Source of the DNA: Galbibacter pacificus
GTDB taxonomy: Bacteria; Bacteroidota; Bacteroidia; Flavobacteriales; Flavobacteriaceae
Length of the DNA stretch: 64,000 nucleotides
Assembly (NCBI RefSeq): GCF_029603165.1
Contig: NZ_JAQSVC010000001.1
Coordinates: forward strand, 558,001 to 622,000
Direction: 5' to 3'
Part shown: piece after piece, positions 31,026 to 38,371 of the stretch
Numbering within the stretch: position 1 is the first letter of the stretch
Layout of the letters: every line of letters begins with the position of its first letter
Made by a program: the position numbers and the translations under genes
The notes under the pieces: generated by a model
What the model was told of the DNA's origin: nothing
Databases searched by the model: none
The model's input: the letters and a program-made list of their open reading frames with translations, nothing else

Positions 31026-31172
31026 AATATGGCTCCTTTAGAAGCTGAAAATTTTTTGTTTAACATGTGCAGGCCCCGGTCCATTGCCGTGAATTAATGC
31101 GGCAGCTTATTCTTAAGTACTCCGTAGGTAAAGGTCCCCAGTAATGCTCCGAGGATTACTACTATGACGGGA
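31024..31172. repeat. 149-bp direct repeat, copy B
   Basis: Partner of copy A at 23123-23271. It starts at the GH2 stop codon and ends inside the intact yeeE gene. Here the yeeE reading frame is unbroken, so B is the functional copy. Confidence 0.85.
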
Positions 31173-31519
31173 TAAAAACCAGCCCCGGCCAAGACAAACA
31201 TCGGTCCCGGACAGGCACCGGTGAGGGCCCATCCCAAGCCAAATATGATACCTCCGATCAAATACCTAGGAATGCTTTTTTGTTTGGGGCTTAACCGTAT
31301 TTCCCGCTTGCCAAAAGTTTTGATATGGTGCCGCTTTATGGCCTGCACCCCGATAGTGCCCAGTAAAAGGGCTGATCCGATAATGCCATACATATGAAAA
31401 GAGCCAAATTGGAACATTTCATAAATTCTAAACCAGGATGCCGCCTCCGATTTGTACATTACGATCCCGAAGAAAATACCCACCGATAAATAGGTTATAT
31501 ATTTCATATTGCTATCCAA
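31094..31519 (-). CDS. YeeE/YedE-family thiosulfate transporter half, C-terminal type
   Basis: This 141-aa membrane protein has about four transmembrane segments and the motif ALTGACPGPMFVLAGAG, whose Cys is part of the thiosulfate relay known in YeeE. It overlaps the upstream partner gene by 8 bp, so the two halves are translationally coupled and together resemble one full-length YeeE. Last gene of its operon; convergent with GH2. The extreme 3' end is duplicated at 23194. Confidence 0.88.
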   Translation of the reverse strand: MDSNMKYITYLSVGIFFGIVMYKSEAASWFRIYEMFQFGSFHMYGIIGSALLLGTIGVQAIKRHHIKTFGKREIRLSPKQKSIPRYLIGGIIFGLGWALTGACPGPMFVLAGAGFYPVIVVILGALLGTFTYGVLKNKLPH

Positions 31520-32072
31520 AAATTAAAGGGTATAATATATGGACCATCACCAGACCTCCGATAAAAAAGCCAATGACCGCAATAAGGGAGGGAACCTGTA
31601 AATTACTCAGACCGGAGATGGCATGGCCCGAGGTACAGCCACCGGCGTAGCGCGATCCAAAGCCCACCAAAAAACCGCCCAGGAGCAATAAACCGATCGT
31701 AAAGGGATCGTCAAGTTGCTCCGTTGAAAACAGCTCAGCAGGCAAATAGGCTTTCCCGGCACTTTCAATGTGATACTCCCTTGAGAGTTGTCCGGCCAAA
31801 TCCGGGTTGATTTTTACAGTATTATCGGACATATACCGGGAGGCCAAAAAACCACCAATGACGGCGCCCAGAACCACCAGTAAATTCCATCCCTGTTTCT
31901 TCCAATCGAATTTAAAAAAACCGGACACCCTCCCGGCACCCCCTATGGAACATAATGTCCGAAGGTTTGAAGACATTCCAAACTGTTTTCCCGTCAGCAA
32001 TAAAACAAACATCACTAGTGCGATGAGCGGGCCCGAAACATACCAGGGCCAAGGGTCATATATCCAACTCAT
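31512..32072 (-). CDS. YeeE/YedE-family thiosulfate transporter half, N-terminal type
   Basis: This 186-aa membrane protein has about five transmembrane segments and the signature RYAGGCTSGHAISGL with the conserved Cys. The pair with the 31094 gene is the split form common in Bacteroidota. It probably moves thiosulfate or a related sulfur species across the inner membrane; the direction is not evident. It has its own promoter with a GTAAC-N4-GTTAC site (32122-32135). Confidence 0.88.
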   Translation of the reverse strand: MSWIYDPWPWYVSGPLIALVMFVLLLTGKQFGMSSNLRTLCSIGGAGRVSGFFKFDWKKQGWNLLVVLGAVIGGFLASRYMSDNTVKINPDLAGQLSREYHIESAGKAYLPAELFSTEQLDDPFTIGLLLLGGFLVGFGSRYAGGCTSGHAISGLSNLQVPSLIAVIGFFIGGLVMVHILYPLIFG

Positions 32073-32091: not shown

Positions 32092-32135
32092 CAAATATCT
32101 GGATTTTTAAAAAATGAAACAGTAACATTGGTTAC
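32092..32135 (-). promoter_or_regulatory. yeeE operon promoter with Crp/Fnr-type site
   Basis: The inverted repeat GTAAC-N4-GTTAC (32122-32135) lies 22 nt before the -7 box GATATTTG (32092-32099, one mismatch). It is one of three promoters in this module with the same site and identical spacing. Confidence 0.8.
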
Positions 32136-32192
32136 AGGACAACATATATCTGCATATGAATGATTTCATGAGGCCCCCATAGTCTTCTGTAC

Positions 32193-33611
32193 CTATTTTA
32201 AGGATGCGGGGCATATAGGACCTGAGGTCTTGATACCCGCTTCTTTGACCGCTTTAAAGCCCCCTTTGATATCTATAAGGTTATGAATGCCACGACGCTT
32301 GAGGATAGAAGCCGCAATCATGCTGCGGTAGCCCCCTGCGCAATGGATATAAAACATTTCCTTTTCCGGGAACCGGTTCAAATGCTCGTTGATGGAAGAA
32401 AGGGGCGTGTTTTGCGCATCAAGGATATGCGCTGATCGGAATTCACCTGGCTTTCGAACATCAAATACCGGGACGGGATGCTCACTATCCTGCTTGAGCT
32501 GTAGGAGCTCATCTGCCGGAATAGAAACAACGGTATCGTAGTGCCTGCCTGCTTTTTTCCATGCTTTAAAGCCTCCGTCCAGGTACCCAATGGTGTTGTC
32601 AAATCCGACACGGGACAACCGGGTAAGTACTTCCACGATACGCTGCTTTTCGGCAATTAGTAAAATAGGCTGTTGTACGTCTTTTATCAGCGTTCCCACC
32701 CAAGGGGCAAAATCTCCGTCGATGCCTATGAAGATCGATCCCGGGACATGGCCCCTGGCAAAATCAACCTGATGCCTTGCATCCAATAGTACCGCCCCGG
32801 TATGATTTGCCGCTATTTCAAATGCATCCGGTGCTAAGGCATTTTCACCATGAGCAATGATCTTCTCCATATCCCGATAGCCTTTTTTGTTCATTTTGAC
32901 ATTCATGGGGAAATAGGCCGGTGGAGGCTGTAGACCGGCAATCACCTCTTTGACGAATTCCCCTTTGGTCATATCTGCCCGTAGGGCATAGTTGACCTTT
33001 TTTTGATTCCCCAGGGTATCTACTGTTTCCTTCATCATATTCTTGCCACAGGCAGACCCCGCTCCATGGGCCGGATAAATGATAATATCATCGCCCAGCG
33101 GCATGATCTTATCACGCAGGCTGTCGTACAAGGTACCGGCGAGCTCTTCCTGTGTCATGTGGGCTGCTTTTTGTGCAAGGTCAGGACGGCCAACATCCCC
33201 CAAGAACAGGGTGTCACCTGTAAAGAGGGCATGATCTTTTCCATCTTTATCCTTTAAGAGATAGGTGGAGCTCTCCATGGTATGTCCCGGTGTATGTAAA
33301 ACTATAAGGGTAAGTTCCCCGAGTTTAAATTCCTGACCGTCCTTTGCGATAATGGCCTCAAAGCCCGGGTTTGCGGTAGGGCCATATATAATCGGGGCGC
33401 CGGTCCTTTCGGACAGGGTTACGTGCCCGGAAACAAAATCGGCATGAAAGTGTGTTTCAAAGATGTATTTTATTTTTGCCCCGGCGGCATCCGCTTTATC
33501 GATATAGGGCCGTACTTCCCTCAAGGGGTCGATAATGGCCACCTCACCTTTACTTTCGATATAATAGGCCCCTTGTGCCAGGCATCCGGTATAAATTTGT
33601 TCTATGTTCAT
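32193..33611 (-). CDS. CstB-like persulfide dioxygenase: MBL fold plus two rhodanese domains
   Basis: About 472 aa from the chosen start at 33611 (MNIEQIYTG); the longer frame to 33659 adds unconserved residues. Residues 1-230 form a metallo-beta-lactamase domain (THFHADFVSGH, HTPGHTMESS, FTGDTLFLGDVGRPDL) of the ETHE1/persulfide-dioxygenase type. A central rhodanese-like domain (VLLDARHQVDFARGHVPGS) lacks the active Cys. The C-terminal rhodanese has HCAGGYRS with the catalytic Cys. This order, with an inactive middle domain, is that of staphylococcal CstB, which turns persulfides into thiosulfate. The TauE and YeeE neighbours fit that role. The reaction is inferred from architecture. Confidence 0.88.
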   Translation of the reverse strand: MNIEQIYTGCLAQGAYYIESKGEVAIIDPLREVRPYIDKADAAGAKIKYIFETHFHADFVSGHVTLSERTGAPIIYGPTANPGFEAIIAKDGQEFKLGELTLIVLHTPGHTMESSTYLLKDKDGKDHALFTGDTLFLGDVGRPDLAQKAAHMTQEELAGTLYDSLRDKIMPLGDDIIIYPAHGAGSACGKNMMKETVDTLGNQKKVNYALRADMTKGEFVKEVIAGLQPPPAYFPMNVKMNKKGYRDMEKIIAHGENALAPDAFEIAANHTGAVLLDARHQVDFARGHVPGSIFIGIDGDFAPWVGTLIKDVQQPILLIAEKQRIVEVLTRLSRVGFDNTIGYLDGGFKAWKKAGRHYDTVVSIPADELLQLKQDSEHPVPVFDVRKPGEFRSAHILDAQNTPLSSINEHLNRFPEKEMFYIHCAGGYRSMIAASILKRRGIHNLIDIKGGFKAVKEAGIKTSGPICPASLK

Positions 33612-33663
33612 AGGTTCATTTTTTGTATGTTTTTTCAACGTCATAAAAACAGGGATCATTCAG

Positions 33664-33707
33664 TAAAATTAGATTTTGTCATTATCATATCCTGTAACCA
33701 TTGTTAC
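33664..33707 (-). promoter_or_regulatory. MBL-rhodanese promoter with Crp/Fnr-type site
   Basis: TGTAAC-N4-GTTACA (core 33694-33707), 22 nt before TAATTTTA (33664-33671, one mismatch to TAnnTTTG). This is the best palindrome of the three sites. Confidence 0.8.
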
Positions 33708-33724
33708 ACAAGGCCGTTTTTAAC

Positions 33725-34525
33725 TCAAGCATGTATGTGTGTAAGGGACAGTTCTTTATACAGGATATAAACCCCCATGATGAGAACAAACCAACCAAAT
33801 GTCTTTTTGAGTTTCTTTCCTTCGATGAAATTATTGATCCATATCCCCATGGTAATTCCCATAATTGAGATTCCCGTGAAGGTCAACAAAAAGGGCCAGT
33901 CTATGTCGAGGTTTTGGACATCCCCAAAAAAGCCGGTCAATGAGTTGATCCCAATGATAAAAAGGGACGTGGCCACTGCCTTTTTCATGGGAAGCTTGGC
34001 CAGAAGGACCAGGGCGGGAATTATTAAAAATCCGCCCCCTGCACCTATAATACCGGTGACAAGCCCCACGATCAGGCCCTGTGTTATTAATAAGGGGGCG
34101 TTGTATGTTTTTGGCCCAAGGGACCGTTCGCCGATCATGGTCAGGGAGGCCGATAGCATGACCATGGCAAAGAATAACATAATGGCCAAATCCTTGGTTA
34201 CGGCAAAACCGCCTATTTTGAATAATTCCTTTGGAAGTGCAGGGACCAAGTAGGCCCTGGTCAGGTAGATGGTCACAAATGCAGGAATGGCAAAAGGGAT
34301 GGCCGTTTTAAAATCGACCATCCCTTTTGCCATGTTTTTAAGGGCCCCGATCAGTGATGTGGCCCCCACCACAAACAATGAATATGCCGTGGCAGTCACC
34401 GGATTAAGTGCTAGGGCATATACTAATAAGGGGACGGTAAGGATAGCACCGCCACCACCTATCAACCCTAAGACCAGCCCTATTAAAAATGCTCCTGAAT
34501 AACCGAAAATTTCTACAATGTCCAT
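33725..34525 (-). CDS. TauE/SafE-family sulfite/organosulfur exporter
   Basis: This 266-aa inner-membrane protein has about eight transmembrane segments. Both family repeats are visible: GLVLGLIGGGGAILTVPLLVYALAL at the N-terminus and GLVTGIIGAGGGFLIIPALVLLAKL in the middle, each with the Gly-rich turn. TauE/SafE carriers export sulfite, sulfoacetate or related anions. Next to a CstB-like enzyme it would dispose of the oxidised products, as TauE does in the cst operon. Its own promoter holds the third GTAAC-N4-GTTAC site. Confidence 0.88.
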   Translation of the reverse strand: MDIVEIFGYSGAFLIGLVLGLIGGGGAILTVPLLVYALALNPVTATAYSLFVVGATSLIGALKNMAKGMVDFKTAIPFAIPAFVTIYLTRAYLVPALPKELFKIGGFAVTKDLAIMLFFAMVMLSASLTMIGERSLGPKTYNAPLLITQGLIVGLVTGIIGAGGGFLIIPALVLLAKLPMKKAVATSLFIIGINSLTGFFGDVQNLDIDWPFLLTFTGISIMGITMGIWINNFIEGKKLKKTFGWFVLIMGVYILYKELSLTHIHA

Positions 34526-34544
34526 ATCTATTTTAATTCCGGGA

Positions 34545-34588
34545 CAAATGTAACGGCTGTGCTTTTCAAGTTTGGTAACCGATGTTAC
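34545..34588 (-). promoter_or_regulatory. tauE promoter with Crp/Fnr-type site
   Basis: GTAAC-N4-GTTAC (34575-34588) stands 22 nt before a perfect -7 box TACATTTG (34545-34552). The operator overlaps the stop codon of the Crp/Fnr gene. Confidence 0.82.
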
Positions 34589-35211
34589 AGGACTTCGATA
34601 AAACTGCGATGTAGGTTTATTTTGTTGTTGTTTTCCATTTTCTTCAGCAGTCTCGAGATTACCACACGGCTTGTGTGAAGGTCTGCCGCAATTTCCTTAT
34701 GCGTGGTATATATATGCTTACTTTTTATGACTTTGACTTTATTGTAAAGGTAGTTTTCCAATCGTTGATCCATATTGTTAAAGACGATATTGTCGACACT
34801 TTCCAAAAGCTCCATCATTCGCTGGTGATAGCTGGCAAAAACAAAATTCCGCCAGGTTTTATACCTTGTGGACCAGGTTTCCATTTTATCGACCGGAATC
34901 ATCAATAGGCTTACCGGGGTCTCCGTTACGGCATGGATCTCACTGATGGTATTTCCCATGCAACAGGTCATGGTCATGGCACATGCATCCCCTTTCTCGA
35001 GATAGTACAGCAATAACTCCTCTCCATCGGGATCGGGCCGCATTATTTTAATGCTCCCCGATAACAATAGGGGCATTGATTTAATATATTGCCCGGGTCT
35101 TATCAAATCCTGCCCTTCCGGTAACTCCATAAAAGTAGCGGCCCGGCTGATTTCTTCTATAAGAGCGGGTTCAAACCGTTCCCCGTAATATTTTTTAAGT
35201 TCCGATGTCAT
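34585..35211 (-). CDS. Crp/Fnr-family regulator, candidate sulfur/redox sensor
   Basis: This 208-aa protein has an N-terminal cyclic-nucleotide-binding-like beta-roll (residues about 15-120) and a C-terminal winged helix (HKEIAADLHTSRVVISRLLKKME). The N-terminal Fnr cysteine cluster is missing. Instead Cys77, Cys83 and Cys84 sit in GDACAMTMTCCMG, where Crp proteins have the phosphate-binding loop. A cysteine-rich sensor beside a persulfide-oxidising operon suggests thiol chemistry as the signal (inference). The three 14-bp inverted repeats placed at the class II activator distance are its likely targets. Confidence 0.88.
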   Translation of the reverse strand: MTSELKKYYGERFEPALIEEISRAATFMELPEGQDLIRPGQYIKSMPLLLSGSIKIMRPDPDGEELLLYYLEKGDACAMTMTCCMGNTISEIHAVTETPVSLLMIPVDKMETWSTRYKTWRNFVFASYHQRMMELLESVDNIVFNNMDQRLENYLYNKVKVIKSKHIYTTHKEIAADLHTSRVVISRLLKKMENNNKINLHRSFIEVL

Positions 35212-35300: not shown

Positions 35301-36221
35301 TCAGTTAAACGACCCACGAAATTCCAAAGGGGTCATATCGGTTTTGTTTTTGAACAATTTACTAAATGATTGTGAGTACTCAAAGCCCAGCTCGTAAGCA
35401 ATTTCACTCACGGACATGGCCGTTGTCGATAATTTTTCCTTGGCCTTTTCAATAAGCCTATTGTGGATGTGCTGTTGGGTATTCTGCCCGGTCAATCCCT
35501 TGAGCAGCGTACTTAAATAGCCGGGGGAGGTATTTAGGGCATCTGCAATGTACTGTACTGTCGGGACCCCTTTAAGAATCAGATCGCCATTGTTAAAATA
35601 ATCTGTCAGTACGTTTTCCAAACGATCGAGGATTTGATGGCTGCTAATCTCACGGGTTATAAACTGCCGCTTGTAAAACCTGTCCGAATAGTTGAGCAAG
35701 GTCTCGATTAGCGGTACGATGATCCTTTGACTGAATTGATCTATGTTTTCATTGGATTCTTTGGCGATATTTTGGATAATGCCATTTAAAATAGCCTCCT
35801 CTTTATCCGAGAGGAACAAGGCCTCGTTTACGGCATAATCAAAAAAGCCATAGTTTTTAATGTTTTTGGCCAAGTAGGTATTCCACAAAAAATCAGGGTG
35901 GATAAGCAGCATCCATCCCGAGCGCTTTTCATCTGAATTTAATACCGGTTCTATACCGAACACCTGATTGGGAGCAATAAAGAACATTATGCCCTGATCA
36001 AAATCGTATACTTGTTGTCCGTATTTTAATTTGGCACCGATCCCCCTTTTTACCGCAATGTTGTAAAAATCGAAAACCACATTGGATACGCCTTCTTCGC
36101 TGTGGCATTGCATGGCCCCGTAATCGATGGCGCTGATCAGCGGATGCCTGGGCGCCGGTAGTCCTTTGAATTTATGAAATTCAGCGATGGTTTTGATTCT
36201 ATGTGGTCTCATACCTGGCAT
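35301..36221 (-). CDS. AraC-family transcriptional regulator
   Basis: This 306-aa protein has a cupin-like N-terminal half (QGIMFFIAPNQVFGIEPV) and a C-terminal double HTH (VQYIADALNTSPGYLSTLLKGLTGQ, then MSVSEIAYELGFEYSQSFSKLFK). It begins 15 bp after the NmrA-like gene, so the two form an operon. It probably regulates that gene; the ligand is unknown. Confidence 0.9.
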   Translation of the reverse strand: MPGMRPHRIKTIAEFHKFKGLPAPRHPLISAIDYGAMQCHSEEGVSNVVFDFYNIAVKRGIGAKLKYGQQVYDFDQGIMFFIAPNQVFGIEPVLNSDEKRSGWMLLIHPDFLWNTYLAKNIKNYGFFDYAVNEALFLSDKEEAILNGIIQNIAKESNENIDQFSQRIIVPLIETLLNYSDRFYKRQFITREISSHQILDRLENVLTDYFNNGDLILKGVPTVQYIADALNTSPGYLSTLLKGLTGQNTQQHIHNRLIEKAKEKLSTTAMSVSEIAYELGFEYSQSFSKLFKNKTDMTPLEFRGSFN

Positions 36222-36236
36222 TTTACAAAATTAGGT

Positions 36237-37139
36237 TTATTGATTGTAAATTTCGGCAAATTCCCGGGCGAATTCAGTAAATTTCACCTTGCCGGGTTCC
36301 GGCCGGTTGTGATAATAATCTTTGTACAGATGGCCATTTCTTTGGGCAGCCTGCATCTCTACAAACCCTTTGGACAATTCTGCATTCATTCCATGTGAGC
36401 GCATACGGTTCAACATATCCTGGTCGGAAATGGTCATCCATTTTAAATCCGGTCTGCCTATAGCCGTACCAAGTGTTTTCGCAATTTCCACCGCTGAAAT
36501 TTCTTCACTGGCAATATACCGTACCTCCCTTCCTTTAAATTCCGAACCCATTTCACGGGCGATGGTGTGGGCGATATCCAGCGGTGCGACCCATGGTTCT
36601 TTTGCGGTGCCGCCAAAGTTTTGGACAATGGCCCCTTCTGCCTTTATAGTGGGGATGGACCGTAAGAGGTTGGTGTAGAATCCAACGGGCCGCATATATT
36701 TTATTAAAAAGGCAGCGGGCAGTCTGTTTAAGACCTGTTCTACATGATGATGATATTTCAAGGCCCCTATGCCGTTAGCTGTATGGGCACCGATCGTACT
36801 TAAATAGATAATCTTCTTAATCCCGGTTTGTTCAAGTACCTTTTTGTAATTGTGGGCCATTTTGATAAATCCCGATTCAAAATCGACCTTGTCGTCCATT
36901 GCGCTTCCCATGGCCTCCCATATCCCCATAAGGTATACGGCATCTGATCCATCAAAGGCACGCTTTAGGAACTCCGTATCCATGATTGTACCTATGGCCG
37001 CCCTTGCGCCCATTGCCTCAATTTCCCTTTTTCTTTCGGCCGTACTACTGATAAGGGTTACCGCATGTCCGTTTTTAATTAATTCCCGGGTCAGGGGTTT
37101 TCCTATGTTCCCCAAGGAACCCATTGCTGTTATTTTCAT
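36237..37139 (-). CDS. NmrA-like NAD(P)-binding SDR-family protein
   Basis: This 300-aa atypical short-chain dehydrogenase starts with the Rossmann motif MKITAMGSLGNIGKPLTRELIKNG, where NmrA and QOR2-type proteins bind NADP. YLSTIGAH and KYMRPVGFYTNLL follow, as in that family; the YxxxK catalytic pair is not clear. These proteins act as redox-sensing regulators or as quinone/NADPH-linked reductases, and sequence does not separate the two. Cytosolic. First gene of a two-gene operon with the AraC regulator. Confidence 0.85.
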   Translation of the reverse strand: MKITAMGSLGNIGKPLTRELIKNGHAVTLISSTAERKREIEAMGARAAIGTIMDTEFLKRAFDGSDAVYLMGIWEAMGSAMDDKVDFESGFIKMAHNYKKVLEQTGIKKIIYLSTIGAHTANGIGALKYHHHVEQVLNRLPAAFLIKYMRPVGFYTNLLRSIPTIKAEGAIVQNFGGTAKEPWVAPLDIAHTIAREMGSEFKGREVRYIASEEISAVEIAKTLGTAIGRPDLKWMTISDQDMLNRMRSHGMNAELSKGFVEMQAAQRNGHLYKDYYHNRPEPGKVKFTEFAREFAEIYNQ

Positions 37140-37399
37140 TTTTGATCGTTTTTATTAAATACAAAATTCAACAATCACATGCCGGGATATGTATCCATAT
37201 CTTTTCCCGATGTATCCAAAATGAAACATATCAACGTAAAGTTCAAAACAGGGCCTTACATAAAAGCGTTGGGCTTATGCCGCGCCCCATAGTATGTTCG
37301 AAAAAACGATGATTGTCATAACCAACAATAACAGGGTTGTATCTAAAGGCCATTCAGCGTAAGATCATCCTAATGATCAGGTGGAAAAGGGGACCGTTA

Positions 37400-38371
37400 T
37401 CATTTAAATTTACTGGGGACAATGCCAAATTTCTTTTTAAAGGCGGTGGTAAAATGTTGCGGGTTTTTATAGCCGACCATTTCGGAAACCTGAGAGATGC
37501 TTAGGTTTTTCTGAGCTAATAGTTTTTTAGCCCTGTGCATTTTAATATCATTGATATAACCGAATACGGTAGTGCCAACAAGTTCCCTGAACCCTTTTTT
37601 TAAGGTAAATTCGTTCGTTCCTATGAGTTTTGCCAGCTTGGGGATGGTAATCTGTGCATCGTAGTTGTTTATGATGTGTTCCTTGGCCCGCTGAATTTTA
37701 ACGGCATCCAACTCCGATAGGGTCGAGCTGGGGGCCGTGGAATCATAGCGGCACTGGTCCAGCTGTAAAAGCAGTAACTCCAATACCTTGGCATGAAGGA
37801 AAATTTTTCGGTAATGCCCCTTCCAGGGCGACTCAATAATTTCTTCTAAAATTAGCGCTATGGCAGGGGTGATGGGGAAATTACTGTGCTGTAAATATCC
37901 GGTCTGCCGGTTCTGTATGAGATTTTTAAAAGTATCAAATGCCTTACCCCGTGGCATGAAACCTTCAAAAAAAGAAGGCGCCAATTGGATGTTTATAAAA
38001 TGCATTTTCTTTTCCTTGAACTCAATAAGGGCATGGTTATTGGCACAATGGAAGAGATTATGGGTATCGCCCTTAAAACGCTGTTTTTCTTCGGTGTCGG
38101 GTAAATGTGCCTTGACGGTCCCTTTTAAAACAAAAATCATTTCAATGGTAGCATCGGTATAGTTACAGTGGACCTGCATTGGTCTTGACACGGTCAGTTT
38201 CCCATGGCCTATTTTAAGGTCGTCATATACTATTTCCTTATACCAGCCTGAAAAATACGGTTCCTTAAACTCACTGTATAATTCCTTGGTGTTACAATCA
38301 TCTTTTTGGATATCCTTTTTTCCAAAATTAAATTCCGTCAGCCTGGAATTGTTCTTGTTTACCTCCAACAT
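37400..38371 (-). CDS. AraC-family regulator of the iron/siderophore locus
   Basis: This 323-aa regulator has an N-terminal sensing half (VHCNYTDATIEMIFVLKGTVKAHL, then FHCANNHALIEF). The C-terminal AraC HTH pair is KLAKLIGTNEFTLKKGFRELVG, then ISQVSEMVGYKNPQHFTTAFKKKFG. The arrangement is that of PchR-like siderophore regulators. It is divergent from the methyltransferase-like gene, and the three 30-bp elements of the locus lie upstream of that gene, the reductase gene and the TonB receptor gene. It is the obvious candidate to bind them; the inducer would be a ferric siderophore (inference). Confidence 0.88.
   Translation of the reverse strand: MLEVNKNNSRLTEFNFGKKDIQKDDCNTKELYSEFKEPYFSGWYKEIVYDDLKIGHGKLTVSRPMQVHCNYTDATIEMIFVLKGTVKAHLPDTEEKQRFKGDTHNLFHCANNHALIEFKEKKMHFINIQLAPSFFEGFMPRGKAFDTFKNLIQNRQTGYLQHSNFPITPAIALILEEIIESPWKGHYRKIFLHAKVLELLLLQLDQCRYDSTAPSSTLSELDAVKIQRAKEHIINNYDAQITIPKLAKLIGTNEFTLKKGFRELVGTTVFGYINDIKMHRAKKLLAQKNLSISQVSEMVGYKNPQHFTTAFKKKFGIVPSKFK

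Follow-up and report, generated by a model that had tools for sequence, protein, structure and literature searches.

In the sections available to us of the study by Rodionov (2005; PMC1274295), positions 180 and 181 of CRP are tied to letters of the operator, and the palindrome GTAACnnnnGTTAC is predicted as the site of the HcpR2 regulators. According to the same sections, these regulators mostly carry Pro at position 181 (Ser or Gln in three species), control hcp and are tied to nitrogen oxides. Other regulators of sulfide-detoxification genes have been described, and the accessible part of a review of reactive sulfur lists CstR (CsoR-like), SqrR and FisR (Fis-family) as persulfide-responsive (PMC9774590). 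In that part of the review "Fnr" is absent, "Crp" occurs in two reference titles only, and neither "Bacteroid" nor "Flavobacter" is found. None of the matches listed in the open-access literature describes the sulfur regulon treated below; this is weak evidence of absence, and papers that spell Crp/Fnr with a slash were possibly missed.

Here we focus on a module within a stretch of 64,000 nucleotides from Galbibacter pacificus, the window in what follows. The original prediction was that three matching promoter sites define a sulfur-stress regulon under Crp/Fnr control with the geometry of a class II activator. Comparison with relatives supports this outline, with activation and the signal remaining as inferred steps.

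The module and its three promoters

All features of the module lie on the minus strand. Read from high to low coordinates, they are the Crp/Fnr gene (34588..35211, stop codon 34585-34587), site 3 (34575..34588), tauE (33725..34525), site 2 (33694..33707), a metallo-beta-lactamase (MBL)-rhodanese gene (32193..33614), site 1 (32122..32135) and two yeeE-type genes (31512..32072 and 31094..31519). The sites thus stand where they had been placed, site 3 (GTAACATCGGTTAC) before tauE, site 2 (GTAACAATGGTTAC) before the MBL-rhodanese gene and site 1 (GTAACCAATGTTAC) before the yeeE pair, with site 3 overlapping the stop codon of the regulator. They had been called identical, which holds for the arms, an exact GTAAC-N4-GTTAC in all three, and not for the N4 spacers, which differ. 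The base immediately 5' of GTAAC is T in every case. A -7-like box follows each site at exactly 22 nt, again as predicted. Scored against TAnnTTTG, which we take to be the -7 box consensus, the box after site 3 (TACATTTG, 34545..34552) is perfect, and those after site 2 (TAATTTTA, 33664..33671) and site 1 (GATATTTG, 32092..32099) have one mismatch each. The distances from box to start codon are 19, 49 and 19 nt for boxes 1, 2 and 3, with the MBL-rhodanese start set at 33614, where the homologues start (33659 in the ORF listing).

Such promoters are rare in this genome. The exact palindrome occurs seven times in 4,039,961 bases (4.04 Mb), and three of these are the window sites; the other four were dropped as promoters because all of them fall within open frames, three of which are 381, 383 and 407 codons long and one at least 1629. 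The extended pattern T-site-N22-TAnnTTTG, at no more than one mismatch, fits only the three window places in the whole genome, so the claim that this match of sequence and spacing is unlikely by chance stands. When up to three mismatches are allowed, 26 genomic matches compare with 52 for the reversed control, and weaker genomic matches therefore carry no meaning. The bare palindrome with up to two mismatches shows no enrichment in the window either (26 matches where 21 are expected), and mismatched sites were rejected as further members of the regulon on these two counts. No exact copy of the related GTGAC palindrome occurs within the 64-kb window. Next to the module, at 35301-38371, a gene that by eye looks NAD(P)-binding lies between two genes for AraC-type regulators; this region has no exact GTAAC site.

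The regulator is a protein of 208 aa with a cNMP-binding-type beta-roll (PF00027, 39.5 bits, cut-off 27.5) and a helix-turn-helix match (HTH_Crp_2, 24.4 bits, E 2.8e-5) that lies below the curated cut-off of 27 and was counted as present. Its best Foldseek matches are CAP/CRP structures, and profile A1, made from the regulator and its near relatives, aligns with CRP through the helix-turn-helix. The recognition helix reads SRVVISRLLKK, with Arg at CRP position 180 and Val at 181. The genome has 11 cNMP-domain matches, the window regulator included, and among the ten such proteins compared it is the only one with this pair of residues.

The protein differs from CRP in the segment aligned with the cAMP pocket. 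There it reads CAMTMTCC and holds C77, C83 and C84, the only cysteines of the protein, which are invariant in all 29 sequences of the A1 alignment. If Gly71, Glu72, Arg82 and Ser83 are the cAMP-binding residues of CRP, as we assume, the first three are replaced by Ala78, Met79 and Ile89, and Ser83 alone is kept (as Ser90). The N-terminal Fe-S cysteine cluster of FNR proper is absent from the regulator on inspection of its sequence. In the AlphaFold model, pLDDT falls below 50 at residues 80-84, and we therefore make no claim about the geometry of the cysteines. A regulator 62% identical to that of the window is encoded on a 3-kb contig titled Candidatus Rokubacteria (L080), a label that is probably a binning error.

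The genes behind the sites belong to sulfur-handling families. The first encodes a TauE/SafE-family anion exporter (PF01925, 142.1 bits). The MBL-rhodanese protein (PF00753, and PF00581 with two stretches) matches PDB 3tp9 and 3r2u over nearly its full length (3r2u over residues 4-456) and is likely a persulfide dioxygenase/sulfurtransferase. The first of the YeeE/YedE-type pair is a Sulf_transp protein (PF04143, 67 bits) that resembles part of the thiosulfate transporter TsuA, at 43 bits, far under the cut-off of 400, and with an E value of 6.3e-7 to PDB 6leo; the second is assigned by a domain match (Sulf_transp / DUF6691). No clear SQR partner was found in the genome of the window, where the single match is weak (E 1.8e-5), and the local circuit would thus be limited to export, the oxidation of persulfide and the transport of sulfur compounds.

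Site, spacing and targets in relatives

For comparison we used 80 named loci, the best 80 of 576 confirmed relatives of the Crp/Fnr gene. They contain 226 exact sites, against a mean of 1.5 for 59 permuted palindromes of the same letters. Loss of the sites where the regulator is kept was looked for as evidence against the prediction, and 75 of these best 80 loci retain at least one exact site; of the five that have none, L099, L100, L109 and L137 have one site with a single mismatch and L129 has two. The regulator's own promoter was correctly said to lack the site in the window, but an exact copy lies before a crp-family gene in 27 of the same 80. The spacing is also kept. Where a box that fits TAnnTTTG perfectly lies 0-59 nt downstream of an exact site, the gap is 22 in 114 of 132 cases in these best 80 of 576 loci, with 18 at all other gaps taken together, and the 59 permuted palindromes combined give 10 boxes at any gap in that range. 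Among the matches listed from a scan of family genomes (gap 12-32), gap 22 accounts for 121 of 149 spans. The site thus stands at a fixed distance from the core promoter, as is characteristic of class II Crp activators. Two further features that played no part in choosing the promoters recur in 222 distinct aligned ones, T before the site in 89% and G at the second spacer base in 55%. The leader is short, with a median of 21 nt over 115 perfect-box matches, which fits a real promoter. The box often departs from consensus, the last base being A in 13 of 14 SQR-like promoters and the first C or G in 7 of 22 YeeE promoters. The switch thus recurs in many related bacteria, at an unchanged distance from the promoter and near the same regulator gene, which suggests a compact circuit that would control toxic sulfur compounds.

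The pattern also goes with the regulator across genomes. In the family sample of 149 genomes, 103 have the spaced pattern (gap 12-32); 101 of these genomes also have a Crp match (of 129 in all) and 2 do not (of 20). The Fisher p of 5e-9 ignores kinship, which inflates such values, and the genomes that lack the regulator are in many cases small or incomplete. In the class sample of 295 genomes, 50 have the 22-nt pattern, at 68 places compared with 4 for the reversed control. Of these 50, 45 match the regulator alignment (of 181 that do, paralogues being included among the matches) and 5 do not (of 114). Those 5, and the 136 of the 181 that have no pattern, count against the association.

The targets were read from 240 oriented matches (box at gap 21-23, at most one mismatch), of which 233 have a readable downstream frame; the latter include the three promoters of the window and one reverse reading. 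The larger classes are MBL-rhodanese (58), TauE (40), Crp family (27), YeeE (22) and SQR-like (14), followed by peroxiredoxin and SulP (10 each), fatty-acid-hydroxylase (9) and cytochrome c (6), and then by cytochrome bd and YgaP-like (4 each) and SorA-like, SoxA/TsdA-like and TolC (3 each). Three single genes and 17 unclassified ones, some of them reverse readings of a site, make up the remainder. Class names come from one representative each, by Pfam and NCBIfam, and those of SQR, SorA and SoxA score under the NCBIfam cut-offs. Judged by these annotations, the downstream genes are mainly sulfur genes. When 30 genomes were sampled by the pattern alone, at a single place per genome, 26 of the 30 downstream proteins match the target set.

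Two side observations belong here. A gene for a TolC-type outer membrane protein follows the site in 7 of the 30 pattern-only places (L036, L037, L039, L041, L049, L053 and L062), which suggests that in many relatives the regulon includes an efflux system. In three genomes a perfect site and box precede the gene for a small protein of 105-120 aa (L042:1135-1494, L051:1598-1912 and L075, site 17599).

Position 181 and the operator variants

The Val at position 181 fits the rule relating position to operator, as given in the available sections of Rodionov (2005; PMC1274295). It is found in the main homologue of all 80 named loci (the best 80 of 576). Class-wide, the homologues split at this position into Val and Glu types, and the operators mostly vary with them. 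In the loci of 60 distant homologues, GTAAC with a box at 22 was found in 11 of 26 Val loci and 0 of 34 Glu loci (p 2e-5), and GTGAC with a box at 22 in 0 of 26 and 4 of 34 (p 0.13 alone). Regardless of the box, GTAAC sites occur in 12 of the 26 Val and 2 of the 34 Glu loci, and GTGAC sites in 5 of the 34 Glu loci. The pattern GTGAC-N4-GTCAC-N22-TAnnTTTG was found at 24 places, spread over 22 of the 295 class genomes, with no match for the reversed control. Of these places, 18 precede known target families (YgaP-like 7, MBL-rhodanese or rhodanese 6, TauE 3, peroxiredoxin 2), and all five crp homologues within the GTGAC loci are of the Glu type. In these comparisons, Val mostly goes with GTAAC and Glu with GTGAC, at the same gap and before the same gene families.

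The correspondence has its exceptions. Nine GTGAC palindromes lie in the 80 Val-type named loci (the best 80 of 576), eight of them with a box at gap 22. Seven of the eight, in Maribacter and Aurantibacter, precede an MBL-rhodanese gene with no Glu-type paralogue in the DNA examined, and the code is therefore not strict; in the eighth (L078) a Glu-type paralogue stands about 2 kb away. On the tree, a Glu clade (L171, L206 and L219) is nested among Val types, and the independent contrasts that also differ in site type number only two (sign test, p 0.5). A second, Glu-type paralogue with an incomplete cysteine triad is found within 6 kb of the Val-type gene in L078, L082, L086, L094 and L126, and L183 has such a paralogue next to a YgaP-like gene whose site is GTGAC. 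A single regulon may therefore be under two regulators.

Not all homologues retain the three cysteines. The triad is incomplete in 21 of the 60 distant homologues (6 of 26 Val-type and 15 of 34 Glu-type), and in four of the five Glu-type proteins beside GTGAC sites, though their targets are alike. A class-wide reading, in which Crp/Fnr activators of Bacteroidota turned the cNMP pocket into a three-cysteine sensor of reactive sulfur and govern sulfide/persulfide detoxification with rigid promoter spacing, and a switch between Val and Glu re-coded GTAAC to GTGAC with the targets kept, is tentative, and those four proteins weaken it. Bacteroidota are abundant in sea and gut. The regulator, its operator, the spacing rule and the gene set can all be tested, and the two naturally occurring specificity variants connect one amino acid of the protein with one base of the operator.

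Mechanism, alternatives and known systems

Taken together, the regulator, its sites and their sulfur targets probably represent a class II Crp/Fnr activator of sulfide and persulfide detoxification, which would bind its promoters directly. A dimer would bind TGTAAC-N4-GTTAC, and with the palindrome ending 22 nt before the -7 box the site would be centred near -41, on or beside the -33 element; this is the class II position if, as we assume, the box is placed as usual for Bacteroidota. From there the bound regulator would recruit RNA polymerase. It would drive three units in its own genome (tauE, MBL-rhodanese and yeeE-yeeE) and a wider sulfide/persulfide detoxification regulon in relatives, with a crp-family gene included in about a third of loci.

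The signal is, somewhat more likely than not, a reactive sulfur species, perhaps read through C77, C83 and C84 in the segment that corresponds to the cAMP pocket of CRP. The cysteine step, a possible mechanism short of a probable one, is the weakest part of the proposal because of the incomplete triads among the distant homologues and the Glu-type proteins at GTGAC sites. The alternative that survives best keeps the regulator and targets and changes the signal or sensor to copper, sulfite, general thiol oxidation or a pocket ligand. This is a serious contender, though not the favoured one: TauE family members are called sulfite exporters, the targets in relatives include peroxiredoxin and cytochrome bd, and homologues with an incomplete triad have comparable targets. 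However, the MBL-rhodanese family acts on persulfide and is the commonest target (58 of 233), and SQR-like genes are also present.

The protein could also act as a repressor that covers the -33 region and is freed by sulfur stress, since the site presumably lies beside the -33 position of the consensus. We consider this unlikely, as the sharp 22-nt spacing and the centre near -41 fit class II activation and the boxes are frequently off consensus in the SQR-like and YeeE promoters, although the known persulfide-responsive regulators CstR and SqrR are repressors in the accessible part of the review (PMC9774590). Also improbable is a nitrosative-stress regulator of the HcpR2 type that senses NO, with the sulfur genes part of an NO response. 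The motif equals the predicted HcpR2 site (PMC1274295), and HcpR is tied to nitrosative stress in a gut commensal (PMC13370916) and in C. difficile (PMC12915319) in the parts of those papers available; yet the genome of the window has no match to hcp (Prismane, PF03063), found in 5 of 14 control genomes, the targets are mainly sulfur genes and Val replaces the Pro of HcpR2. That another of the 11 cNMP-domain proteins binds the sites, with linkage to the window gene incidental, is very improbable: none of the nine others compared has R180 with Val181, the genomes G064, G078, G099 and G114, where an initial search with the window protein gave a single candidate, keep the spaced pattern, and residue 181 and operator mostly shift together.

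The proposed activator of sulfur detoxification resembles CRP at class II promoters in fold and domain order and, given the assumed placement of the -7 box, in a site centred near -41; it differs in the CAMTMTCC segment that replaces the cAMP pocket, whose residues we take as given above. It shares with CstR, SqrR and FisR the control of sulfide-detoxification genes, and cysteine-based sensing is proposed here too, but those regulators are CsoR-like, presumably ArsR-type and Fis-family, respectively, so far as the review sections cover them, and this one is Crp/Fnr. The match of the window MBL-rhodanese protein to 3r2u brings in the S. aureus cst operon, as we take that structure to be CstB, its MBL-rhodanese enzyme. 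In contrast to the present module, the cst operon is under the CsoR-like repressor CstR (accessible part of PMC9774590). With HcpR2, as described in the available sections of PMC1274295, the module shares the site GTAACnnnnGTTAC and the absence of Glu at position 181, whereas Pro at 181 and control of hcp stand against Val, no hcp match and sulfur targets here. Measured against these sources, the motif (2005, HcpR2) and the superfamily were already known, and the new elements are the subfamily of the regulator, the sulfur regulon and the constant distance from site to box.
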